DNA of 64,000 nucleotides from Gemmata massiliana. Lineage in GTDB: Bacteria > Planctomycetota > Planctomycetia > Gemmatales > Gemmataceae. Of this stretch, positions 25,581 to 39,753 are shown piece after piece. Under the pieces are notes generated by a model. That model worked only from the letters and a program-made list of their open reading frames with translations. It searched no databases and was not told where the DNA came from. The stretch lies in the NCBI GenBank assembly GCA_000531095.1, contig HG799462.1:933551-997550 (forward strand). Reading direction: 5' to 3'. Every line of letters starts with the position of its first letter. Within the stretch, counting starts at the first letter, position 1. The position numbers and the translations under genes were made by a program.

Positions 25581-25623
25581 CGGTGTATCCCTTGTAACGG
25601 TGTTTGTTGGTAGGTGGGGTGGG

Positions 25624-26121
25624 TTACGCCATCGCCTGCGGGCCGGCTTGGGTCGTGCCCAGGGTGGATGCGAGCTCGAAGTAGAGCTGCGTGGCGCCGA
25701 CCTCGGCCCGGCGGCTCAACCGGCCGAACGCCAGGTTGGCGGTGGCGACGATCTCGACCGCCTGGTCCGCGACCGCGTCCGCGCCGCCGGTGCCCGTCCC
25801 GGCCGGGCCGACGTAGGCCCCGATGTCCGAGGCCGAGCCCAGGGCCGTGCACGGGTAAACGAACTCGCCCCGCGTCGCCACCAGGATGTCCCGGGTGTCG
25901 GCGGCGAGCTTGGCGTCGAGGGCCACGCCGATGAACACGTCGTGGGCCGCTTCCTGGTTCTGGGCCTTGGTGCCCGAGTCCGCCAGGGTCGAGATGGGGC
26001 TGGCCTTGGAGGACACCATCGCGACGAAGTCGCCGGCGTAGATGGCGGTGGCCACGGTCCCGGCCACGCGCTTGGCGCGGGCGTCACCACTGATGAGTCG
26101 GCCGACGTTGTTGTAAGGCAT
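25624..26121 (-). CDS. Capsid decoration protein (DUF2190-like)
   Basis: A 165-residue beta-rich protein (GTVATAIYAGDFVAMVSSKA, FIGVALDAKLAADTRDILVA, TRGEFVYPCTALGS). The pattern GDFV...GVALD...GEFVYP is typical of DUF2190 decoration proteins. It sits between the protease/scaffold and the capsid genes. Confidence 0.72.
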   Translation of the reverse strand: MPYNNVGRLISGDARAKRVAGTVATAIYAGDFVAMVSSKASPISTLADSGTKAQNQEAAHDVFIGVALDAKLAADTRDILVATRGEFVYPCTALGSASDIGAYVGPAGTGTGGADAVADQAVEIVATANLAFGRLSRRAEVGATQLYFELASTLGTTQAGPQAMA

Positions 26122-26154
26122 GTCAGGGGCTCCTTGCTGAGCGGGTAGGGTTGG

Positions 26155-27027
26155 TTACTTGGCCAGGAGCCACTTCTTCAGGGCTGCCTTGTCCTTCGGC
26201 GGGGCATCCACCGGGGCGGCCTGGGCCTGCTCGGTGAGCGGCATGGAAGCGCCCGCCTGGGCCGTGACGTACTTCCGGGGCTTGGCCATAGCCGCCACGG
26301 TCTTGGTCAGGTTGGCGATCTGCTCCTGGAGCGCCGCCACCGTGGGGTCGGTCTGCTCCTTGGCGGGCTCGTCCTTCTTCTCCCCATCCTGGGGAGGGGT
26401 GTTGATTTCTTCCTGCTTCTCAAGGATGAGCTTGATCTTGGCCGCCTTGCCCGCGGTATCCAGGGCGGTATCCTGCAGGACGGCGAGGACCGCCTGGCTG
26501 AACGCATCGGACATCGCCTGGTCGCTGACGGAGGGTTCCGCGGCGGGGGCGGCGTCCTCCTGCTCCTTCAGGGACGTGGCCGTGGCCGGGTCGGACACGA
26601 GGTCCACGGACTGGACGCGATCGATCTTGGTAACCACGAGGATGTCCTCTTTCATGTGCGACTGGCCGTGGGCCGAGTGGGACAGACCGAAGAAATTGAG
26701 ACCGCGGGCCAGGTCCTCCTTAATCATCGCCGTGACCTGGGCCTGGGACTCCAGGTACACCAGGTCGCCCCGCAGTTCCTTCCGCTGGGCGTCGAACCGG
26801 ACGTTCTTGAGACGGCCGAAGCGCTCCTGGGCCGAACGGTGCTTGTCGGCGCTGTGGTTGACGTAGACCGCCTTGCCCTCGTACAGGCTCACCGCACCCT
26901 GCATGGCCTGCTCGGTGTAGAGCCGCTTGTTCTTGGACCGCTGGCCCAGGATCTTCACGTCGGCGATCACCCCAGCGGCCGGCGCCTGGGCGGACTCCCA
27001 GAGGGTGGTTTCGATGAGCTGCGGCAT
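26155..27027 (-). CDS. Prohead protease fused to scaffold
   Basis: A 290-residue two-domain protein. The N-terminal domain (residues 1-150) holds AVYVNHSADKHRS and GLNFFGLSHSAHGQ, consistent with a His/Ser prohead protease, then DRVQSVDLVSDPATA. The C-terminal half is charged, helical and coiled (ALDTAGKAAKIKLILEKQEE, VAALQEQIANLTKTVAAMAK), as expected of a scaffold that is later digested. It overlaps the portal stop by 1 nt. Confidence 0.75.
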   Translation of the reverse strand: MPQLIETTLWESAQAPAAGVIADVKILGQRSKNKRLYTEQAMQGAVSLYEGKAVYVNHSADKHRSAQERFGRLKNVRFDAQRKELRGDLVYLESQAQVTAMIKEDLARGLNFFGLSHSAHGQSHMKEDILVVTKIDRVQSVDLVSDPATATSLKEQEDAAPAAEPSVSDQAMSDAFSQAVLAVLQDTALDTAGKAAKIKLILEKQEEINTPPQDGEKKDEPAKEQTDPTVAALQEQIANLTKTVAAMAKPRKYVTAQAGASMPLTEQAQAAPVDAPPKDKAALKKWLLAK

Positions 27028-28511
27028 CAGGCTCTCCCGGCGTCACGCTGCATCAGTCCGGCAGCGGTCTGTGGTTGCTTGGCGGCGGCAGGCGAGGAGG
27101 GGACGACCGGTTCCGGCGGCAGCTCCGCAAAGTTCGCCTGCTCCTTGTCCCAGTCCAGGCCCTCCTCGGCCGCGATCGTCTGGGGACTCTTAATCTTTGC
27201 CAGACGGAGCACTTCGTTACGCTGGGTCTCGTCCAGCATGTTGCGGACTACCGGCGAGGTGTAGTTCACGTGCAGGTCGACCCGCTCCAGCACGTCGTCC
27301 GGGACGTCGTCCCGGCCCTGCTCGGCGGCGATCTCGATGACGGCAGTGAGCACGTCATCGACGTACTCCGCCACCACTCCCTGCTCGCCCTCAACGAGCT
27401 TGATGAACGGGCTCTCGGCCGTGAGGGAGGAAGCGTAGCTGGACGCGGTGGAGTCGCCCGAGATGAGCCAGTACGGGCACTCCAGTGCGGCCGACGTGGC
27501 CTCCAGTGAGAGCTTGACGGAGACCGCTGCCGCGTCCGCGTTCGGCGACGGGGGCGGCGGTTGGTATTCCAGGCCCTCCGGGATGTCCTGGACCGTGCCC
27601 GGCTCAATCTGCTGGTACGTGACTTCACGGGAGCCGTTCGGCGTGGTCACCGTGTAAGAGCCGGAAGCGTTCGCCGACTGCAACGATTGAATGGCGCCGA
27701 CGGGGGCCTGGGCGTGCTGGCGGACGTAGGCGATGCTCGCCCGGACCTTCTCGCCCTCACGGCTGGCGTGGCGCAGCTTCTGCCCGCCCTGCAGCTCGTC
27801 GATGCACGCGGTCAGCGCGGGAAGGCCCCGCTTCTGATTCAGGTTGGAGCCGCGCTTGAGGTGGAAAATGAACTGCGCCGGAACCTGCCGCTCGCTGTTG
27901 GTGCCGTAGTCCCGGACGTTGTACCGCACCGGCTTGCCCGGCCGGTCGGGGTCGGTCAGGATGCCCCAGGACCACGGCCCCTCGTAGGACTGCCCCTCCG
28001 GGGGGACCACCTGGTCCGGCTCGATGAACTTGAGGGCCGTGACCCCGTCGTCCATCGGCGTGAGCTGGATGAAGCACTCGCCATCCGTGAGGTACCGGCG
28101 GTAGATCTCGCGTTCGACAATCTTCCAGTGGCAGGCCCGTTTGAATTCCTCGAGTAGCGCCGTGATGACCTTGGCCAGGCGCTTCGGGGCTTCCTTGTCC
28201 GGGTCCGCGGACTGGACCTCCTGGCAGGAGCCCGCCCCAACGACGTAGCGGCCCATCCCGTTGATGCCGCCCGAAGCGTTCGGGTTCCGCTCGTACAGGT
28301 AGCGGGAGACGTGGCGGACGCGGTTGAGCTCCTGCAGCGTCCGGACCGTCTGCAGCTTGTCCCGGTACAGCTCCGGACCCCAGACCGGGGTGAGGGGCCT
28401 GCCGTTCCAGGTGTTCAGCTCGTAGTCGGAGACGGGGGTGCCATAGATGTCCTGGGTGGACGCCTCTTGTAGGCCGCCGAACCAGCTCCGTAGCTTGCCC
28501 CAGATCGACAT
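27027..28511 (-). CDS. Portal protein (lambda-type)
   Basis: A 494-residue portal, which forms the DNA entry ring. Typical stretches are ARYLYERN-like VSRYLYERNPNASGGINGMG, FKRACHWKIVEREIYRRYLT, DGECFIQL, FIEPDQV, QFIFHLKRGSNLNQKRGLPA and the helical LSLEATSAALECPYWLISGD. The C-terminal tail is Pro/Ala-rich. I prefer ATG 28511 (MSIWGKLRSWFGG), which has GGGAG about 9 nt before and lies after the TerL stop. ATG 28538 (MHLNREPEYMSIW) is possible, but its DNA duplicates an internal TerL stretch. Confidence 0.88.
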   Translation of the reverse strand: MSIWGKLRSWFGGLQEASTQDIYGTPVSDYELNTWNGRPLTPVWGPELYRDKLQTVRTLQELNRVRHVSRYLYERNPNASGGINGMGRYVVGAGSCQEVQSADPDKEAPKRLAKVITALLEEFKRACHWKIVEREIYRRYLTDGECFIQLTPMDDGVTALKFIEPDQVVPPEGQSYEGPWSWGILTDPDRPGKPVRYNVRDYGTNSERQVPAQFIFHLKRGSNLNQKRGLPALTACIDELQGGQKLRHASREGEKVRASIAYVRQHAQAPVGAIQSLQSANASGSYTVTTPNGSREVTYQQIEPGTVQDIPEGLEYQPPPPSPNADAAAVSVKLSLEATSAALECPYWLISGDSTASSYASSLTAESPFIKLVEGEQGVVAEYVDDVLTAVIEIAAEQGRDDVPDDVLERVDLHVNYTSPVVRNMLDETQRNEVLRLAKIKSPQTIAAEEGLDWDKEQANFAELPPEPVVPSSPAAAKQPQTAAGLMQRDAGRA

Positions 28512-28528
28512 GTACTCCGGCTCCCGGT

Positions 28529-29998
28529 TCAGGTGCATAGTATCTTTGCCTCTGGTGGGCGCTTCTGGCCGGTGAGGAGTAAATTCAGGGCCTGGGTCGC
28601 CATCTCCACGGCATCCGGGCCGTCGTCGTGGGCACCGTTCGGCAGTTCCTTCATCTGCTGCAGCGTGAGCTTGTTGCCCACCGTCTGCCCGAGGAAGTGC
28701 AACCGCTTCTGCGCCAACAGCGGCCCCAGGGAGACCTGGATGCGAGCGTGCTTGGACTGGTCGGAGGGGGTGGTGTGCAGGTCGATGGGCACGTCCAGGC
28801 CCTCGGCACGCAGCCGCTCCTGGATGGCAAGCCCGACGGCCTCCTGGAACTGGTTCGACTCCACGATGAGGCGGGCGTAGGGCCGGCCCTCCCGCTTGGC
28901 CTGCCCGACGATCGCCACCGCCCGAGCGTACAGCGACGGGAGCGGCTCCCGGTTCAGGTGCATGGTCCCATAGAGGTGGCGATCGGCGAGCAGCGTGAGG
29001 TCGCAGAACGCCCCGTAGTCGCCGGCCTTGCCCGACTTGGACTTGCTGGGGTCGAGCGACAGGACGCGGAACTGCTGCGGGTTCCGCTCGTGAATGGGCA
29101 GCTCGTCGCACCACACCCAGGGGCCGAAATACTCGTCGGGGAACGCACGGAGCGTGGAATCGCCCGTCGGCTGGCACTGGTACAGCGCGTCCCAGATGTG
29201 GGACTGGCCCCGTAGCTCGTAGGCCCGCCGCTTGTCCTCGTACCACTCCTGGCTGTACTTGGACGTGAACAGGCCCTCCCCGGGAGAACGACCCACGAGG
29301 TCGTTCTCCTCGGCGAGCGCCGGGAACCGCACCACGAGCCACTCCTCGGGCTCCGTCGCCAGGAGCCGGCCGCACAGGTCGTCCGGGTGCCAGGGGGTGT
29401 TGATGATGGCCGTGAAACCGTCCGGCGTGAGCCGGGTCTCAACAGCAGCGTTGTACGTCGCCCACACCTTGTCACGGATGACGATCGATCCAGAATCCTC
29501 CGAGCCCTTGAACGGGTCGTCGATGATGATCCCGGTGGCGTCCCGGCCGGTCACGCTGCCCTGGATGCTGGCGCTGATGACGTGGCCGCCTGCGGTGGTC
29601 TTCCAGTAGTGCTTGGCCTGCGAGTCGCTGCGGATCTGCAACCGCCCGGTCGGGTCCAGCGAGCCGCCGAACTCCTTGATGTAGTCCCGGGCGATGCTCC
29701 CGTGGCCCGACGCCAGCTCCGCCGAGTAGGACAGCAGGATCAGCTTATTGGCCGGGTTCTGGTTGAGCACCACGCACGGGAACAGGCGGCTGGTGATGAG
29801 GCTCTTGGCGTGCTGGGGCGGCGTGAGCGCCATCATCTTGCGGCACCGCTCACCCGCCCTGGGGTGGCCCGGGGGGAACCGGAGCTGCTTCGCCGCCAGC
29901 AGGACCAGTTGGCGCTGCAGGTAGTGGTGGAACGGCGCCCAGCGGTACGTGGGGTGGGTCAACCTGGCCAGCGCGAGGGGCGTGAGAATGGGTTGCAC
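28529..29998 (-). CDS. Terminase large subunit
   Basis: The packaging motor: an N-terminal ATPase (Walker A TPPQHAKS at residues 59-66; Walker B GIIIDD near 156-161) and a C-terminal RNase H-like nuclease (RVLSLDPSKSKSGKAGD, RLIVESNQ, HDDGPDAVEMA). The length of 489 residues is normal. The start at 29998 overlaps the upstream gene by 149 nt; a later start is unlikely because LTHPTYRWAPFHHYLQRQLV fits the family's N-terminus. Confidence 0.93.
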   Translation of the reverse strand: MQPILTPLALARLTHPTYRWAPFHHYLQRQLVLLAAKQLRFPPGHPRAGERCRKMMALTPPQHAKSLITSRLFPCVVLNQNPANKLILLSYSAELASGHGSIARDYIKEFGGSLDPTGRLQIRSDSQAKHYWKTTAGGHVISASIQGSVTGRDATGIIIDDPFKGSEDSGSIVIRDKVWATYNAAVETRLTPDGFTAIINTPWHPDDLCGRLLATEPEEWLVVRFPALAEENDLVGRSPGEGLFTSKYSQEWYEDKRRAYELRGQSHIWDALYQCQPTGDSTLRAFPDEYFGPWVWCDELPIHERNPQQFRVLSLDPSKSKSGKAGDYGAFCDLTLLADRHLYGTMHLNREPLPSLYARAVAIVGQAKREGRPYARLIVESNQFQEAVGLAIQERLRAEGLDVPIDLHTTPSDQSKHARIQVSLGPLLAQKRLHFLGQTVGNKLTLQQMKELPNGAHDDGPDAVEMATQALNLLLTGQKRPPEAKILCT

Positions 29999-30500
29999 TG
30001 ATGGCCTCGTCGAGCTGCAGGGCGGCCTCGAGGACGTGCGGGTCCGTCAGGTCCTGCTCCTGAACGTGGAGGGGCGGGGTAATGACCTGGCGGGCCAGTT
30101 CCAGTTTCTGGATTTCCAGGTTGGTCTTGAGCTGGCTGTTGGCGGCCTGTACTAAACGCGCGTAGACTTCCGCCGCACGCTGGGCGTACCGCGGATCAAC
30201 AAGCGGGTTCAGAGCCTGGGCTGCCAGGACGTCCAGAAGCTCCGTCCGGAACGCGGGGAGCTGCACGGAGGGCCAACCGCCCGAAACGGCGCGGGAGACC
30301 AGGGACAGCGTCTCCTCGCGGTCCCGCGGGGCACCGGAGGCAAGAGAGGACAGGACAGGGGAAGGGCTCGGCTGTTCGTCGCGTGCCCGCTGCCGGGCGT
30401 TCTTCGCCCGTTTGCGGCACACGTAATCACAGAACTTCTGACCGGTGTACTGAGCCGAGTAGACCTTCCCGCATTGGAGGCAGGTCGGTTGGGTACTCAT
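29850..30500 (-). CDS. Zinc-finger protein, candidate terminase small subunit
   Basis: A 216-residue protein directly upstream of TerL. The N-terminus has a Cys4-like zinc finger (CLQCGKVYSAQYTGQKFCDY, then VCRKRAK). A central helical part follows (RYAQRAAEVYARLVQAANSQ, LKTNLEIQKLELARQVI). The last 50 residues, which overlap TerL in another frame, are Pro/Ala-rich low complexity and may be dispensable. Position suggests DNA recognition for packaging; the fold is not certain. Confidence 0.65.
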   Translation of the reverse strand: MSTQPTCLQCGKVYSAQYTGQKFCDYVCRKRAKNARQRARDEQPSPSPVLSSLASGAPRDREETLSLVSRAVSGGWPSVQLPAFRTELLDVLAAQALNPLVDPRYAQRAAEVYARLVQAANSQLKTNLEIQKLELARQVITPPLHVQEQDLTDPHVLEAALQLDEAISATHSHAPRAGQVDPPHVPLGAVPPLPAAPTGPAGGEAAPVPPGPPQGG

Positions 30501-30518
30501 GCCGTAGCTTTGCCAGGA

Positions 30519-30740
30519 CTAATCCCGGTACACCAAGCGCTGCAGGTCGGTCGCTATCAACCGCTCGTACTGCTGCAACTCCTCGTTGGCCTGAGCCAGC
30601 TCCTCGGCACGCTCCTGTTCGTCGCCGAGGAAGGCATAACGGGCGTAATGCTCGGCGCGGTGGGCGGCCAGCAGGAGTTCACGGTGGCGCCGGATGACAC
30701 CACGGATGCGGGACAGGAGTTTGTCTTGTTCTGGTCTCAT
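30519..30740 (-). CDS. Small coiled-coil phage protein
   Basis: A 73-residue, highly charged helical protein (LSRIRGVIRRHRELLLAAHR, DEQERAEELAQANEELQQYE). It overlaps the next upstream gene by 4 nt. Unknown role. Confidence 0.62.
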   Translation of the reverse strand: MRPEQDKLLSRIRGVIRRHRELLLAAHRAEHYARYAFLGDEQERAEELAQANEELQQYERLIATDLQRLVYRD

Positions 30741-30997
30741 AACTCAGATTTGAGGTAGTGGTCTATCTGCTCGAACAGGTCGGGGGCTTCCCAGTGCAGG
30801 GTGGCACAGACACCAAACAGCACCTGCCCCAACTGCTGGTCGTAGTGGTTGGCGAACACCTCTATCCCGCCTGCGGCGGGACAGGAATCGAAGATCAGGC
30901 AGGGGAAACTGGCTGTCCCATTTATAAGTAGACGCTCGACTATCTCTTCAGGTGTGGCCTGGCGCTGGTAGGCGAGGACTTGTTCCACGACACTCAC
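30737..30997 (-). CDS. Small phage protein of unknown function
   Basis: An 86-residue acidic protein (MSVVEQVLAYQRQATPEEIV, HYDQQLGQVLFGVCATLHWE). It lies 9 nt after the replication gene and overlaps the following gene by 4 nt, so it belongs to the same transcript. No family recognised. Confidence 0.6.
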   Translation of the reverse strand: MSVVEQVLAYQRQATPEEIVERLLINGTASFPCLIFDSCPAAGGIEVFANHYDQQLGQVLFGVCATLHWEAPDLFEQIDHYLKSEL

Positions 30998-31006
30998 GGG
31001 GGTCTC

Positions 31007-32197
31007 CTACAGGGGTTGGCCAGCGGCTTGCCGGGCAGCGATCAGGCTGGTGCGGTACTCTGCGACGCTGTACTCGATGTCCTCCGGGGACATCCAGGGT
31101 GACTGGCGTTTGACCCACTCCCGTTGCTGCGCACACAGGTTGTCGACGCTGCGGTACGTCGGGTCGGCAGGCGGGACTTCCAGGACGGTGTCGTCCGCGT
31201 CGGGGATGGCCAGCGAGTCGCACAGTTCTTCTGCACGCTTCCTGGTTGGTGATGTGTACTGGCTTGCTTCGCCGCCACAGGCGGCGAGCGGCAGGCGGTG
31301 GATGATCTCTCTCTTCAGGCGGTCACGGCCGGCGGTTGCCAGCCAACCCCAGGAGAGGGCCTTGATGCCGAGGAACTCACGTGAGTTGATGGCAGCGGCC
31401 ACCAGGGGAGGTGTGGGTTTGACCTGTTTCTCCTTCTGGATCTCAGTGAATAGGCCGGCGAGCCGGCACGCTGCCAGTTCAGGGGAGATCTTCAGTCCCC
31501 AGGTGAAGGGGTTGTGGTTTTGGACTGGGTTGTTGAGGTGGAGTTCGACCTCCCCAAGTAGTTGGCTTATCCACTCTATCTTTATGAGTCCTGGGACGAT
31601 TCCTATTCTTACTGAGATCTCAGGTGAACGGGTGTTGTTTATGACGCCCCCCCTCTCCCTGTCGTTAGACAGTCCCGACCCCAACCCCGCTTCGGGGTTG
31701 GGTGGGACGTTCTTTGAACGGTTAAGGGGGGTTCTGTGTGTCTTCGGAGACACTCGGAGCGGGGTGTCTTCTGTGACACCAACGGGTGTCTTCTGTGACA
31801 CCGGGTTCGTGTCTTCCGAGACACGCGGAGTCGCCTCGCCTTGGTGTCTTCGGAGACACTCGGAGTGCGGGTTCGTGTCTTCGGAGACACTCGGAGTGGC
31901 GTGTTGCAGTGCTTCGAGGCCCTGCAGGTTGATCGAGTAGCGGGTCGAGTGGTTGTGGCGGTACTCGGTGCGAAGCACACCGAGCTGCCGGAGTTGTTCC
32001 ACCAGCCGCTTCACCTGGCGATTTTGTGGGTCGGCAAAACCGCAGTCGCGGGCCAGTGTGGACTGCAGTGGCCAAGCCCACTCGTTTCGCCCCTGGTAGT
32101 CGTTCAGGAGCCAGAGCAGGCCCTTCTGTTGCAGTGTGAGACCGGACGCGGTGCGGATGAGGTTGAAGCGCTGGATTTGGATCGGGAGGTCTGTCAT
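31007..32197 (-). CDS. Phage replication initiator-like protein with in-gene origin
   Basis: A 396-residue protein. Residues about 15-90 form a winged helix (LTLQQKGLLWLLNDYQGRNE, STLARDCGFADPQNRQVKRL, VEQLRQLGVLRTEYR), as in phage replisome organisers. Residues about 102-155 are low-complexity, with repeats such as VSEDTNP, VSQKTPV and VTEDTPL encoded by six palindromic 16-bp iterons. The C-terminal part (ITPEEV-like WMSPEDIEYSVAEYRTSLIA) is helical. Layout resembles lambda O, where the origin lies inside the initiator gene. ATG 32197 is the first start inside the domain. Confidence 0.75.
   Translation of the reverse strand: MTDLPIQIQRFNLIRTASGLTLQQKGLLWLLNDYQGRNEWAWPLQSTLARDCGFADPQNRQVKRLVEQLRQLGVLRTEYRHNHSTRYSINLQGLEALQHATPSVSEDTNPHSECLRRHQGEATPRVSEDTNPVSQKTPVGVTEDTPLRVSPKTHRTPLNRSKNVPPNPEAGLGSGLSNDRERGGVINNTRSPEISVRIGIVPGLIKIEWISQLLGEVELHLNNPVQNHNPFTWGLKISPELAACRLAGLFTEIQKEKQVKPTPPLVAAAINSREFLGIKALSWGWLATAGRDRLKREIIHRLPLAACGGEASQYTSPTRKRAEELCDSLAIPDADDTVLEVPPADPTYRSVDNLCAQQREWVKRQSPWMSPEDIEYSVAEYRTSLIAARQAAGQPL
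31738..31890. repeat. Six palindromic iterons (candidate replication origin)
   Basis: Six copies of GTGTCTTCGGAGACAC or close variants start at 31738, 31764, 31786, 31809, 31844 and 31875; units 2 and 3 read GTGTCTTCTGTGACAC and unit 4 GTGTCTTCCGAGACAC. Each can form a 6-bp hairpin with a 4-nt loop. Starts are 22-35 nt apart. All lie inside the replication initiator gene. Confidence 0.8.
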
Positions 32198-32201
32198 TGG
32201 T

Positions 32202-32280
32202 GCTCTCGGTTGAACACCGGAACCCCGACGCGGGTCAAAGGCCACCACAGCCTACCGTGTCGGGGTTCCGGATCGAGAGC
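32202..32280. repeat. Two-part hairpin upstream of the replication gene
   Basis: Arms GCTCTCG (32202-32208) with CGAGAGC (32274-32280), and CCGGAACCCCGAC (32217-32229) with its complement at 32259-32271. In the 5' leader of the replication gene, so it could be a terminator or attenuator for early transcription. Confidence 0.6.
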
Positions 32281-32418
32281 AAGCACGCCTACAATACGAC
32301 CGACAGTCTTACTTTGATTTGTTGGTGGTGAAGCGGGTGGTGGCCGCCGTTACCTGCTTAGCTCTCGACGTATCTTTGCCCGGGGAGGTGGTGGCTCCTC
32401 GTGCTCCCCTCAAATACA

Positions 32419-32455
32419 TCGCGACCCAGCAGAGAGGATTACTGCTGGGTCGCGA
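32419..32455 (-). terminator. Strong hairpin between early and replication genes
   Basis: Perfect 14-bp arms (TCGCGACCCAGCAG, 32419-32432 and 32442-32455) and a 9-nt loop. A smaller CCGCGGG/CCCGCGG hairpin (32472-32497) follows. Neither has a T run. They lie in a 331-nt gap where I see no gene. Confidence 0.6.
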
Positions 32456-32528
32456 CGCTGGAGTGATGCTTCCGCGGGGATCTCACGGGTCCCGCGGTAA
32501 CTTGCTACTTACCTTTGCCCGGTGCCGG

Positions 32529-33062
32529 TCACTCGTCCATCGCGTCGGCGACCTGCTGCACTTCTTCCGCAGTGGTGCCGGTCGGCGGCGCTGCCTTGGT
32601 TGTTTTGGCCCGCTTGGGGCGCGGCGGGGCGGGCATCGTTGCGAGCTCGGGGAGCGCCCCTAGCGCGGCAAGAAGGGCCTGTTCCGACCCCTGGCCGAGC
32701 CGCGTGGCAACGGCCGCTGCTGTGTGGCCCAAGTCCACGAGGCGCCTAAGCGCCCTGGCCGCATTCTCCACGCAGCACGGATAACTGCTGCCCCACGCCG
32801 GCGAACGGTACAAACCCAAACCATCCTTAGATCTCCCTTGGCCCAAGTAAGTGGGAATGGTGCTCTGCTTGTGCAGATAAGCCTCAGCCAGTGCGGGGTT
32901 TACACCGCGGCACGACTCGGCGTTGATAGCAGGCCGGACCGGGTCGAGGCACATGATGAGGACCGCCAAGGCCACTTCCTCGGCCAACTGCGGACCTGGC
33001 ATGCACTGTCCCGAACGGGACACGGGCGGTCCGGGAGGGACGTTCATAAAGTTGAAACCCAT
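32529..33062 (-). CDS. Phage early protein, unknown
   Basis: A 177-residue protein: an N-terminal part with several Cys (SRSGQCMPGPQLAEEVALAV, LIMCLDPVRPAINAESCRGV), a helical middle (CCVENAARALRRLVDLGHTA) and a basic, Pro-rich hinge (MPAPPRPKRAKTTKAAPP) before an acidic end. It starts right after the 33064-33360 gene. I do not recognise it; it may bind DNA. Confidence 0.65.
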   Translation of the reverse strand: MGFNFMNVPPGPPVSRSGQCMPGPQLAEEVALAVLIMCLDPVRPAINAESCRGVNPALAEAYLHKQSTIPTYLGQGRSKDGLGLYRSPAWGSSYPCCVENAARALRRLVDLGHTAAAVATRLGQGSEQALLAALGALPELATMPAPPRPKRAKTTKAAPPTGTTAEEVQQVADAMDE

Positions 33063-33063
33063 T

Positions 33064-33360
33064 TCACAACCACCTTTCTGGGAAGCCCGGGACGATGCCG
33101 CCGAGACACTCGGCGACGCCCGCCTCGAATGCTGGATCAGCCATCTCAAATCGCCGGGCTGGCGCGGCAAGCGGGACACAGGTGCTGAGAGTTAATGTGA
33201 CGGCGCCATCGTCGCAAACCGTTATGGCGCCGGTCACTCCGATCGGGGCTAGCCCGAGCCACGGGCCACGAACCCAAGGGGACCAACTGAGGGCCGCGTG
33301 TGGGTGGAGCTGTTTGAGGGCCTGCTCGAGGCGGTGCTTCACGAAATCGACGGGGTTCAC
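33064..33360 (-). CDS. Phage early protein, unknown
   Basis: A 98-residue protein starting at GTG 33360, which overlaps the previous stop as GTGA. Content: VNPVDFVKHRLEQALKQLHP, then WSPWVRGPWLGLAPIGVTGA, VTLTLSTCVPLAAP. No family recognised. Confidence 0.58.
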   Translation of the reverse strand: MNPVDFVKHRLEQALKQLHPHAALSWSPWVRGPWLGLAPIGVTGAITVCDDGAVTLTLSTCVPLAAPARRFEMADPAFEAGVAECLGGIVPGFPERWL

Positions 33361-33554
33361 TTCACGTCCTCCCCGCGGAACGATGCGGGGAAGTCGGCCG
33401 GGTGGCCCACCTTCACAAGTTGTGACGCGATCACGTCCGTGGGCAGGCCCTGCGGCAGGGCGGCGAGCGTGCGGGCGTTTCCGGCCTCGATCGCCGCGAG
33501 CATCGCCTCGCGGGAGTAGCGGGTGGCGGTTGGGACGGTGGTTTCGACGTGCAT
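33357..33554 (-). CDS. First leftward early phage protein
   Basis: A 65-residue protein (MHVETTVPTATRYSREAMLA, AIEAGNARTLAALPQGLPTD). ATG 33554 is preceded by AGGAGG 6 nt upstream, the best ribosome site in the phage, which fixes the start over an ATG 36 nt earlier. As the first gene from the divergent control region it could be regulatory, but no helix-turn-helix is obvious. Confidence 0.68.
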   Translation of the reverse strand: MHVETTVPTATRYSREAMLAAIEAGNARTLAALPQGLPTDVIASQLVKVGHPADFPASFRGEDVK

Positions 33555-33881
33555 GCGATCCTCCTGTTTCGGTCGTGCCGGCTGCGACATGCGACCGGCT
33601 CACGTCAGGAATAATCGCTCGTGAATTACCAAAAGTCAAGGCGTTAATTTTCCGCAAGTTGTTTTGCTGTAATGACTTGCGTTGAGGGGTGGGGGGAGAC
33701 TTAGGGGGTCCGGGGCGGGACCGACCGGCGCCGGGGGCCGGGGGATGTCGAACTGTGCTACTCAGTTTTACTCTCGGTTTCACACGGTAAAAGATTTGTG
33801 CAACTATACTTGTGGGGAATTATTCCCCTCGATAAAATAACGAAGGTGGTAAGAATAATTCCCCCAAGTGAGGTTAGACAG
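33555..33881. promoter_or_regulatory. Divergent phage control region with operator-like repeat
   Basis: This AT-richer gap separates leftward and rightward phage genes. Inverted sites CTTGTGGGGAATTATTC (33809-33825) and GAATAATTCCCCCAAG (33853-33868) differ by one inserted T and are 27 nt apart; each holds a near-palindrome GGGGAATTATTCCCC or part of it. The second ends just before the GAGG ribosome site (33870-33873) of the first rightward gene. Good candidate repressor operators. Confidence 0.65.
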
Positions 33882-34046
33882 ATGATCGAGATCACGGTGG
33901 ACGCGGACGATGGGCGGACGGTGACGATCGACGTGGAACTGCACCCCTCTGCAGACCCAGCCGCGGTGAAGCGGGAACTGGTCAGGGCCATCGCGGAGGC
34001 GATCGGGAAGCACGACGCGGTCAAGGACATCACCTACGCCCGCTAA
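33882..34046 (+). CDS. Small rightward phage protein
   Basis: A 54-residue protein (MIEITVDADDGRTVTIDVEL, ELVRAIAEAIGKHDAVKDIT), strand-helix layout. ATG 33882 follows GAGG and the operator-like repeat. Possibly a small regulator or excision factor by position; no signature. Confidence 0.6.
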   Translation: MIEITVDADDGRTVTIDVELHPSADPAAVKRELVRAIAEAIGKHDAVKDITYAR

Positions 34047-34111
34047 CAATCCGCCGGGCCGCACCGGGCTGGTGCGGCCCCTCCCCCAATCAACAAACCG
34101 GAGTGAGACAA

Positions 34112-34378
34112 ATGTGGACCGCGACGATCGACGATCCCGACACTGGACTGGCCGAAGTGCTCGCCACGGGCAGCACGCCCGAGGAGGCGGTGGCCCGCCT
34201 CGACGCCGCGACAATCGACGGCGAGTCGAACGACGAGGGCCTGACAATATGGACCGACGGTAGAAGCGGAAAGCGGTACGTGGTCCCAGCAGACCTTGAA
34301 TACCCGATAATCGGCAGAGTGTACAACATCAACGAAGAATTCGCGATGTTCACCACGGACGAAGAGGAGGCCGAGTAA
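34112..34378 (+). CDS. Small rightward phage protein
   Basis: An 88-residue acidic protein (MWTATIDDPDTGLAEVLATG, LEYPIIGRVYNINEEFAMFT). ATG 34112 has GGAG 8 nt before; a GTG at 34103 would overlap that site. Stop overlaps the next start (TAATGG). Acidic small proteins here may mimic DNA; that is speculation. Confidence 0.6.
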   Translation: MWTATIDDPDTGLAEVLATGSTPEEAVARLDAATIDGESNDEGLTIWTDGRSGKRYVVPADLEYPIIGRVYNINEEFAMFTTDEEEAE

Positions 34379-34683
34379 TGGCCCGCCCACGCAAGAAGAA
34401 GGCCACGGAAGCCGCCCCCGAACGCTCCCCGCAGGAAGCGGCACTGTGCGAGAAATACCCACTCGTGAACATCGTCCCGGGTTCGTGGCGAGCACCGGGC
34501 GGCAGGGACGGGTGGGGCACGAAGGCGACGGTGGTCACGCTCTGCCCCTGTTCCGAAGCGGAGGGCAAGGACGTAACGACGGTGCGGGCCACGAGCGACC
34601 TGTTCCAGGTCGGCTCCCTCTGCCAGGTGTGCAGCAAGGCCCGGAGCAAGAACAAGGCGGCGAAGCGGAAAGAAGCCAAGTAA
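34378..34683 (+). CDS. Small basic Cys-containing phage protein
   Basis: A 101-residue protein with basic ends (MARPRKKKATEAAPERSP; KARSKNKAAKRKEAK) and Cys pairs (TLCPCSEAEG, SLCQVCSKARS) that look like a small zinc ribbon. Likely nucleic-acid binding. It precedes the integrase by 55 nt. Confidence 0.62.
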   Translation: MARPRKKKATEAAPERSPQEAALCEKYPLVNIVPGSWRAPGGRDGWGTKATVVTLCPCSEAEGKDVTTVRATSDLFQVGSLCQVCSKARSKNKAAKRKEAK

Positions 34684-34693
34684 CCCCCACCCA

Positions 34694-34720
34694 CGGGGCA
34701 CGCTACAATGGCGTGCCCCG
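34694..34720 (+). promoter_or_regulatory. Hairpin with TACAAT in its loop before the integrase
   Basis: Perfect 10-bp arms CGGGGCACGC (34694-34703, 34711-34720) with loop TACAATG, 18 nt before the integrase GTG. It may be a terminator for the upstream gene, and the loop fits a -10 box, so it may also set integrase transcription. Confidence 0.5.
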
Positions 34721-34738: not shown

Positions 34739-36577
34739 GTGCACACCGTCGTGATCTACTGCCGGGCCTCGTCGAGCGAGCAGACCGTCAGCTGCGGGGA
34801 CCAGCTCAAAGCACTCAAGGCCGAAGCCAAGAAGAAGGGCTACAAGGTACTGCGGGACTACATCGACGACGGCCTCTCCGGGTCCAAGCAGATCGAGAAG
34901 CGGGTAGCTTTCCACCAGATGATAGAGGACTCCTCGGCGAGAGAGTTCACGCACATCCTGGTGTACGACTCGAGCCGCTTCGGTCGGCTCGACGCCCTCG
35001 CCGCCGCCCAGCACAAGCTGACACTGCGGAAGAACGGGGTGCAGGGCCTCATCTCTCTGGGGGAGGGGGAGCTGCTGTGGACCAGCTCGATGGGGCGGAT
35101 GATGGACGCCCTCACCTCAGAAGCCAACCACGAGACCGCACTCAAGATCAGCCGGGCATCCATCCGGGGGAGGGTCGAACAGCTCCTCGAACGCAAGGTC
35201 TACCCGCACGGCCAGATACCCTACGGCTATGCCAAGGTCTACCGCGGCGACGGCCAGGAGATAAGATTGGGGCGGGACGCCCGGTTCCACAAGCCCCGCC
35301 ACTGGACCCGCGAGTTGGTGGTTGATGAGGCCGAGGTCGCGGTGGTGAAGAGGATATTCGCCCTCTACACGGGTAAGGCCCAATCTATCCGCCAGATCAC
35401 CGCCACACTCAACGCGGAGCAGGCCCCCTCCTGGGACAAGAACGGGTGGTCCTGGAACTCCGTAAGCAAGGTCCTCACGTCGAAAGCCTATCTCGGCTAC
35501 GGGATGATCCACGGCAGCAAGAAGGTGTGCAAGGAGGCCCACAACCGGTGCGAGACAATCGAGGTTCCCGGCGTCCTCCCGGCCGTCGTCGACCAGGATA
35601 CCTTCGAGCTGGCCCAGCGGCTGCATTCCAGGTCCACCATCTCCCGGTTCCGCTCGGACAAGGATAACCGGACCCTATCCGGGATAGTCCGCTGCGGCCA
35701 CTGTGGATACGCCCTCGTGAGCAAGCAACGCAAGAGGGAGGGACGGGCCGGCGGCGTGTTCTACTCGTGCGTGGGTGGGCTCAAATATTCGACCGGCTGC
35801 CCGCAGTACCAAGCCTACGAATCCGACCTGCTGCCGAGCATCATCAAGGAATTAGTGAAGGCAGTCGACGCGGAGGTGCTGGCCCAACTCGCACCCAGGG
35901 AAGAGGCACCCGCCGCGGACGACCCGAGTGCGGGACTGGCCAAGCAAGTCGAGAAGCTCCGGGAGCAGGTCCGGCGGGCCACGCTGAGGGCTGCCGCGGC
36001 GGACGACGACATGCTGGCCGAGTATGACGAAGCGGCCCGTGAGCTGAAGGGGCAGTTGAGGGCCGCGGAGGAGCGGCTCCGCGTGACCAAGCACGTGCAG
36101 CAGGAGGGTGGCCCCGCGCTGTGGACGGAGTGGTGGCGGGAGGTCCGCCCAGACGTGATCGGTGCGGCGAACGATCCCGCACTGGCCACCGAACTAACGG
36201 AGGCCATCTTCCGTGAGTACCCGGCCCTGCGGAGCGTCCCGACCGGTGGGACCGTCACGGAGTACCTCGCGCGAGCCCGGGAGACGCTGTCCCGGCTCGC
36301 CAAGGACGGCAACACGGACCCGCTGGCCACGCTCCTCCCGGACCTGCTCGGGGAGCGGACGACGGGCACGGTGGTGGACAGCAACACGCTGAAAGCGACG
36401 CTGCGGCGGATGGGGTGCGAGGTGAGTGTGTGGTGGCGGACCGCAGAGCGGAAACGGAGAAATGAGCCGTTACACGTGCTGGACAAGGCGAAGCTGGTGA
36501 TTAGCTGGTCTGGGCACTCTGCTCCATCCAGTAGAGGAACTGGAGATAGTGCCCGGGGAACGCTTCGTGGATCGTGA
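34739..36577 (+). CDS. Large serine recombinase (phage integrase)
   Basis: A 612-residue integrase. Resolvase domain (1-150) with Y7-x-R9-x-S11 (IYCRASSSEQ), DDGLSGSKQIEKR and YDSSRFGRLD. Recombinase domain (about 165-290; GQIPYGYAKVYR, ILYTGKAQSIRQI-like IFALYTGKAQSIRQITATLN). Zinc ribbon CGHCG near 319 with later Cys (YSCVGG, TGCPQ). Coiled coil about 390-450 (LAKQVEKLREQVRRATLRAA). GTG 34739 is the start. The core GCT (36521-36523) is codon 595, so the last 17 residues are encoded by host DNA; in the excised circle the tail would be TSGSRVPDIRRTVVIRY. Confidence 0.95.
   Translation: MHTVVIYCRASSSEQTVSCGDQLKALKAEAKKKGYKVLRDYIDDGLSGSKQIEKRVAFHQMIEDSSAREFTHILVYDSSRFGRLDALAAAQHKLTLRKNGVQGLISLGEGELLWTSSMGRMMDALTSEANHETALKISRASIRGRVEQLLERKVYPHGQIPYGYAKVYRGDGQEIRLGRDARFHKPRHWTRELVVDEAEVAVVKRIFALYTGKAQSIRQITATLNAEQAPSWDKNGWSWNSVSKVLTSKAYLGYGMIHGSKKVCKEAHNRCETIEVPGVLPAVVDQDTFELAQRLHSRSTISRFRSDKDNRTLSGIVRCGHCGYALVSKQRKREGRAGGVFYSCVGGLKYSTGCPQYQAYESDLLPSIIKELVKAVDAEVLAQLAPREEAPAADDPSAGLAKQVEKLREQVRRATLRAAAADDDMLAEYDEAARELKGQLRAAEERLRVTKHVQQEGGPALWTEWWREVRPDVIGAANDPALATELTEAIFREYPALRSVPTGGTVTEYLARARETLSRLAKDGNTDPLATLLPDLLGERTTGTVVDSNTLKATLRRMGCEVSVWWRTAERKRRNEPLHVLDKAKLVISWSGHSAPSSRGTGDSARGTLRGS
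36521..36523. other. attR core (GCT)
   Basis: It is shared with 15778-15780. In the circular form, GGGCACTCTGCT (36512-36523) and AGCAGGGTGCCC (15790-15801) would be 9 nt apart and match as inverted repeats at 11 of 12 positions, as arms of an attP. Confidence 0.75.
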
Positions 36578-38882: not shown

Positions 38883-39753
38883 GTGCCTCTCCTATCCGGC
38901 ATAACGCACGTGCGGGTCGCGAGTAGAGCGCGACGCACACGGCCACCGTCACAAGGCTCAGCACTGCTGTTGCCGCGGCCCGCGGCCAGTCACCGTAACC
39001 CAGGCTGTCTTTCTGCACTTTCACCGCGAGCGTCGCCTGTTCCGGCCCCCCGAGCAAAAGCGGACCGACGAACGCGCCCAGCGCCCAAATCAGGCACAAC
39101 TGCCCCGCAATGGCGACACCGGGCAGAGACAGCGGCAGCGTCACGCGGCGGAACGCGGTCCACGGCCCCGCTCCCAGTCCGCGTGCGGCCGCGGTCAGTG
39201 TTGGGTCGATGCGGTCGAGGGCGGGTACCAACACGAGCACCGCATAGGGCATGATGAGGTACGTCTCCGCCACCAGCACGCCGAACAGGTTGTGTGTGAG
39301 CAGAATTGGCTCGGACGTCAGCCCCAACGCGAGAAGCACGCGATTCACGGGACCGGTGTTCCCGAGCAGCAGGTTCACCCCGTAAAGCACGACGAACACG
39401 TTCGTCAGTTTCGGGAGGATCACCGCGCCGAGTGCGAGGGCTTTCGCGCGCTGAGGGAGCGAGTGAATAAACAGCGCGAGCGGGTAGCCGATGGCCACAC
39501 TCAGCGCCGCAACTGCGACTCCCAGAATGATTGTGAACGCAACGATTCCCCGGCCGTATCGCTCGCCGAGGAGTTCGGAGTAGGCGCTGAGCGTCCACGA
39601 ATCGGGACGGTAGAAACCCGTCCCTCCCGTGCTCTCGTAGAGGCTCGTGCGGAGGAGAATGAGAACTGGTCCCGCAAAGAGCGCGAGGAGCAGAATCAGT
39701 GCGGGGGCCGCGAGCAACCACGGCACGACCGAGCGAGTGGAGTGCGGCGTCAC
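38875..39753 (-). CDS. ABC transporter permease (PotB-like)
   Basis: A 292-residue permease with six helices (PWLLAAPALILLLALFAGPV, VAVAALSVAIGYPLALFI) and the EAA loop AAARGLGAGPWTAFRRVTLP, nearly the same as in its partner. Start is GTG 39753, overlapping the substrate-binding gene's TGA (GTGA). Confidence 0.9.
   Translation of the reverse strand: MTPHSTRSVVPWLLAAPALILLLALFAGPVLILLRTSLYESTGGTGFYRPDSWTLSAYSELLGERYGRGIVAFTIILGVAVAALSVAIGYPLALFIHSLPQRAKALALGAVILPKLTNVFVVLYGVNLLLGNTGPVNRVLLALGLTSEPILLTHNLFGVLVAETYLIMPYAVLVLVPALDRIDPTLTAAARGLGAGPWTAFRRVTLPLSLPGVAIAGQLCLIWALGAFVGPLLLGGPEQATLAVKVQKDSLGYGDWPRAAATAVLSLVTVAVCVALYSRPARALCRIGEARA

Follow-up and report, generated by a model that had tools for sequence, protein, structure and literature searches.

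Six palindromic repeats within a planctomycete prophage initiator gene as a probable lambda-type intragenic origin

What do six near-identical 16-bp palindromes do inside a gene for a phage replication protein? The window, by which we mean the whole 64,000-nucleotide stretch of planctomycete DNA analysed here, contains such a cluster at 31738-31890, and an initial annotation proposed it as a candidate origin within an initiator gene. The cluster is confirmed, and the proposed reading remains the best one. With high probability, the gene encodes the initiator of replication for a tailed-phage prophage, and the six repeats are its iterons (Table 1). With the same high probability, we infer that the repeats are a lambda-type intragenic origin that is bound by the gene's own product. 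We favour this reading because the protein has initiator homology, the units occupy all codon frames, gene and repeats were replaced jointly in relatives, and the architecture recurs in other phages; a survey of the phylum and a viral scan based on DNA alone agree with it.

Table 1 Features of the candidate origin and the initiator gene, in positions of the window.
Feature	Positions	Strand	Remarks
Replication initiator gene	31007..32197	-	396 aa, ATG start, stop codon 31007-31009; HTH_36 and phrog_270 matches
Winged helix-turn-helix domain (residues 19-73), presumed to bind the iterons	31979..32143	-	Pfam range and AlphaFold model
Iteron 1 (gene sense)	31875..31890	-	codon frame 1
Iteron 2	31844..31859	-	codon frame 2
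Iteron 3	31809..31824	-	codon frame 1
Iteron 4	31786..31801	-	codon frame 0
Iteron 5	31764..31779	-	codon frame 1
Iteron 6	31738..31753	-	codon frame 0
Perfect hairpin 1, 9-bp arms, 3' of iterons (gene sense)	31681..31701	.	L010 counterpart, equal distance from G-tract
Hairpin 2, 5-bp arms, 4-nt loop	31659..31672	.	counterparts at -18 in L009 and L010
G-tract, coding strand, part of GAGAGGGGGGG	31647..31653	-	same tract in L010, similar tract in L009
AT-rich stretch, candidate unwinding element	31510..31659	.	GC 0.43-0.52 in 60-bp windows

The N-terminus of the protein matches Pfam family HTH_36 (E 2.8e-6; 27.4 bits against a curated cut-off of 25), which is the sole Pfam family found up to E 1; Phage_rep_O (PF04492), the lambda O family, gave no match. 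In PHROG, the protein matches the replication initiation protein family phrog_270 (E 4.9e-13) and the O-like families phrog_391 (8.7e-10) and phrog_345 (1.2e-8). An AlphaFold model of residues 1-101, based on an alignment of 22 sequences, has a helix-helix-helix-strand-strand topology and a mean pLDDT of 90.1, making it a confident winged helix, and its recognition helix has an arginine, R64, that at least 90% of those 22 sequences share. The top Foldseek matches of this model are winged helices of the MarR/Fur/CodY type, mostly regulators (best E 2.9e-3). The full-length model was poor (mean pLDDT 44.9) and was set aside. The prophage neighbours of the gene include a terminase (28529-29998, phrog_38), a portal protein (27027-28532, phrog_21) and a serine integrase (34739-36577, phrog_95). 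Pfam and PHROG searches recognised no helicase or loader of the P or DnaC type beside the initiator: 30519-30997 and 32529-33179 are without a usable family match. Two further inverted repeats lie near the gene. One, at 32217-32271, is just upstream of the start codon (17-nt arms, 94% complementary, 21 nt apart) and is possibly an operator or a leader hairpin; the other, at 32419-32455 in the gap separating the initiator gene from the neighbouring one, has perfect 14-bp arms around a 9-nt loop.

All six repeats conform to the dyad GTGTC-N6-GACAC and fall within residues 103-154, past the winged helix. Perfect 6-bp arms are present in four units and 5-bp arms in the other two. The repeat centres are asymmetric, and because the central TTC is constant on the + strand, the six units have a single orientation. 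They are spaced by 26, 22, 23, 35 and 31 bp, so two of the five intervals (31 and 35) are wide. The six copies compare with 0.0013 expected by chance in the gene, and no further copy occurs in the 64 kb window. When the codons of the gene were permuted 2000 times, no version exceeded two exact copies of a single dyad, and a search of the rest of the window for further families of at least three exact dyads within 200 bp returned none. With two mismatches allowed, the 9.27 Mb host genome has the 16-mer at these six positions and at two isolated single sites, with no second cluster, and we therefore rejected mobile palindromes scattered over the host as an explanation.

Selection could in principle have acted on a repetitive protein linker, leaving the DNA symmetry as a by-product. 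The repeats do encode a low-complexity linker, but the units are read as VSEDT, CLRRH, VSQKT, VTEDT and VSPKT, in all three codon frames, and selection on a peptide does not explain near-identity over 16 bp in three frames. For the window gene this placement led us to reject the peptide linker, which we hold to be extremely unlikely; because six near-identical 16-bp units stand in all three frames, selection must have acted on the DNA, with the linker as the by-product. The SEDT/SQKT linker noted in the initial annotation is accurate to the extent that such peptides are encoded in two frames, whereas one copy reads CLRRH and the linker is not a conserved feature. Symmetry could also serve in RNA, as hairpins acting on the initiator mRNA: every unit can fold into one, and stronger ones are present at 31659-31701. 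However, two of the six units have arms of only 5 bp, and 14 of the 25 arrays found in the survey described below have no dyad consensus, many repeat families being direct rather than palindromic. Rfam gave no match near its thresholds, on which basis an RNA element was rejected; we assign it virtually no weight.

An intragenic origin of this general kind is already known from lambda. In lambda ori, which lies in gene O, and in the Stx-phage origins, the repeats stand within the initiator gene, past its N-terminal DNA-binding region. According to published work (PMC7466680, PMC6022878), every lambda iteron consists of inverted halves and binds two O proteins, an AT-rich region adjoins the array, and Stx-phage origins have six iterons. 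The self-palindromic nature of the units had been offered as a contrast with lambda, which is wrong, because each lambda iteron is itself an inverted repeat. The lambda record has four annotated iterons (39034-39118) with spacings of 20/24/23 in frames 0,2,2,1, followed directly by 40 bp with a GC content of 0.23 and an A excess of 0.53. The window shares with lambda ori placement in several codon frames and an AT-rich tract on the 3' side; three of its five spacings (22, 23 and 26 bp) are close to the 20-24 bp, or about two helical turns, of lambda. It differs in its unrelated repeat sequence, in a protein of another winged-helix subfamily, which matches HTH_36 and PHROG 270 rather than PF04492, in its two wider gaps, in an AT-rich stretch that is displaced and set off by two hairpins, and in that no P-type loader was recognised. 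SPP1 oriL in gene 38 likewise has direct repeats and an AT-rich element within the initiator gene (PMC6316719); SPP1 differs in having another origin, oriR, and gp39 as its known loader, and here neither is seen. In PLE RepA of a Vibrio satellite, the DNA-binding domain and the origin vary as a module, as proposed here, but the protein is of the RepA_N type and the origin is intergenic (PMC8263062). Searches of literature listings and abstracts gave neither a description of intragenic origins from planctomycete prophages nor one of an iteron class with GTGTC. Weigel and Seitz's 2006 Bacteriophage replication modules may cover the general rule.

Close relatives of the gene carry arrays of their own. 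Of 149 genomes searched, nine, counting the one that holds the window, reached E 0.01 or better, and L009 and L010 are the only other loci among them that align across most of the initiator protein. L009 has four copies of GGACACRGAAGWCC (spacing 23/22/26) and L010 six copies of GTGAA-N5-TTCAC, one with a mismatch (spacing 21-44), both at the same place as the window repeats. The initial annotation had suggested comparing iteron spacing in relatives and had named absence of the repeats from close relatives with a conserved protein linker as a result that would speak against it; the relatives instead have arrays in the same position, with similar spacing and different words. GC skew, which it had also suggested, shows no turn at the repeats, its signal being uninformative. 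In a further locus, L011, the winged helix alone matches, and the repeats are of a third version.

The L009 and L010 genomes belong to two genera and share one site (loci L018 and L019), where the DNA on the downstream side reaches 93.1% identity across 2.2 kb and 91.0% across 7.2 kb. Shorter upstream pieces are 95.8% identical over 168 bp and, adjoining the gene, 81.4% over 172 bp. Because these flanks are 91-93% identical yet only a 55-bp match is found inside the initiator gene, the alignments indicate that initiator and repeats were exchanged together between the two genomes. The winged helix of the window protein is 51% identical to that of L009 versus 32% to that of L010, while its C-terminal domain is 39% identical to L010 versus 30% to L009; this hints at mosaicism within the initiator gene, as judged from three sequences. 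Scanning viral and genome contigs by alignment gave nothing beyond the contig of the window itself and a relative that was already known: L017, L021 and L143 are one IMG/VR contig, the window's own prophage, with L017 100% identical over 7351 bases. Searches of named phages by tblastn with three initiators, L142 and L144 gave no match.

We surveyed initiator loci across the phylum, starting from 392 genomes (phrog_270 match in 189, HTH_36 match in 162) and adding L009 and L010. Forty-seven distinct loci were picked by hand, with duplicate entries for one place dropped; two were too short, leaving 45 that were tested. A significant direct-repeat array lies within 360 bp past the winged helix in 25/45, and none was significant in 20/45. 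Control stretches at the two locus ends were positive in 3/45 and 1/43, two of these four positives coming from one locus. If the four positives with repeats known beforehand are excluded (the window, L009, L010 and L011/L038), the rate is 21/41; two positives, L042 and L069, resemble simple-sequence runs. Copies stand in more than one codon frame in 21 of the 25 arrays. In L026, L027, L029 and L069 every copy is in one codon frame, and in these genes a selected linker gains some support. A dyad consensus is present in 11/25 and lacking in 14/25, and spacings of 21-24 bp make up 50 of 97. Over the first 40 bp past the last repeat, GC content declines by 0.088 (s.e. 0.016), a drop unmatched elsewhere in the ±400 bp profile. 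Tandem repeats just past the winged helix are thus a candidate origin marker in 25/45 surveyed initiator genes, and phage origins, and possibly initiator specificity, may therefore be readable from sequence alone. One surveyed gene, L080, carries fourteen repeat copies with a near-regular 17/17/23-bp rhythm.

The repeats can also be used without reference to any protein. A scan of IMG/VR for tandem GTGTC-N6-GACAC returned at least 120 stretches from at least 80 loci. Among the matches listed, ORFs of 100 aa and longer cover the cluster in 65/80 loci, at a median residue of 106, and in 15/80 no such ORF does; the longest covering ORF was taken, so the frame may be wrong in some. Of these ORFs, which form 33 clusters at 70% identity, 54/65 match phrog_270 and 50/65 match HTH_36 at E 0.01. 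Again among the matches listed, copies occupy more than one codon frame in 47/65, 98 of 130 spacings are 22-25 bp, and the 40 bp past the last copy show a GC drop of 0.100 (s.e. 0.009) and an A excess of 0.24; the row at -240 of this GC profile is an edge artefact. A letter-reversed control pattern of equal composition found 0 loci in the same scan. Palindromy of these loci is not independent evidence, because the pattern selected them; their location in initiator genes is. A narrower scan for two close copies of GTGTC-N3-GAAGACAC returned the window's own contig and L142 (IMG/VR 3300033067_001781), whose five copies stand in frames 0,1,0,1,2 at intervals of 22-23 bp. L142 shares this iteron class with the window, in an O-family gene (Phage_rep_O, PF04492, E 2e-7), but the body of the protein is different and a DnaB gene (9.7e-97) lies directly downstream.

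These data bear on whether the sites might serve some other DNA-binding protein, for instance a host factor or one that acts in partition or packaging. Tandem palindromes are typical of centromere-like sites too. Against this, the repeat sequence changes with the initiator, tandem copies lie in initiator genes in 54/80 viral loci among the matches listed, and similarity of the repeat words is weakly correlated with that of the winged helices (23 loci; Mantel r 0.18, p 0.014), beyond what permutation gives. We consider another protein very unlikely.

Past the iterons, the lowest-GC 100-bp segment starts at 31542 (GC 0.45, within the lowest 0.9% of 25600-34700). In 40-bp blocks counted from the last iteron, GC is 0.53 and 0.68 in the first two and reaches its minimum of 0.40 at +120 to +160, so that the AT-rich stretch is displaced by ~80 bp from the last iteron. 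An origin could work here as follows. The N-terminal winged helix would bind each palindrome as a dimer, with a monomer on each GTGTC half-site, about one helical turn apart, and the array with initiator bound would form an O-some-like complex. Opening of the AT-rich stretch, which lies downstream in the gene, would follow, and a replicative helicase would then be loaded, possibly via the C-terminal domain. Binding, unwinding, helicase loading and origin use are all predicted steps, and initiator and origin would move as one cassette.

The repeats might instead be initiator sites mainly for control (autoregulation, incompatibility or replication shut-off), with the true origin elsewhere in the phage. 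Iterons in many replicons are known to have a control role as well, and the inverted repeat at 32217-32271 could be an operator. But the repeats are in mid-gene rather than at a promoter, and the 3' AT-rich stretch recurs in both the survey and the viral set, which makes a mainly regulatory array unlikely.

In our judgement, a candidate origin for a planctomycete prophage could be turned into a small replicon for organisms in which genetic tools are few. The general kind is known; its breadth and the recovery of initiators from DNA alone are the more interesting part. More speculatively, and doubtfully in our view, GTGTC-N6-GACAC may represent an origin-specificity class common to many otherwise unrelated phages, with HTH_36- and lambda-O-type initiators, in a mobile initiator-origin cassette that here would include a fixed-spacing hairpin-hairpin-G-tract element acting in opening or priming.

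This element (31647-31701) is a lead only, because it was found after the fact and in three genes. The two hairpins of L010 resemble those of the window gene in size and lie at the same distances from the G-tract, -48 and -18, and L009 has hairpin 2 only; across the three genes the tracts stand in codon frames 1, 2 and 2. Runs of six or more G are not enriched in initiator tails (8 in 22443 bp versus 33 in 112036 bp outside). The G-tract is present in 4/65 ORF-borne loci among the viral-scan matches listed, and a scan for AGAGAGGGGGGGAT gave 58 loci, three of them with a hairpin nearby. The window gene is without a start codon past the tract, whereas in L010 (2053-2067) GGAGAGGGGGGG is followed by an in-frame ATG, which could be an internal translation start yielding a C-terminal product.
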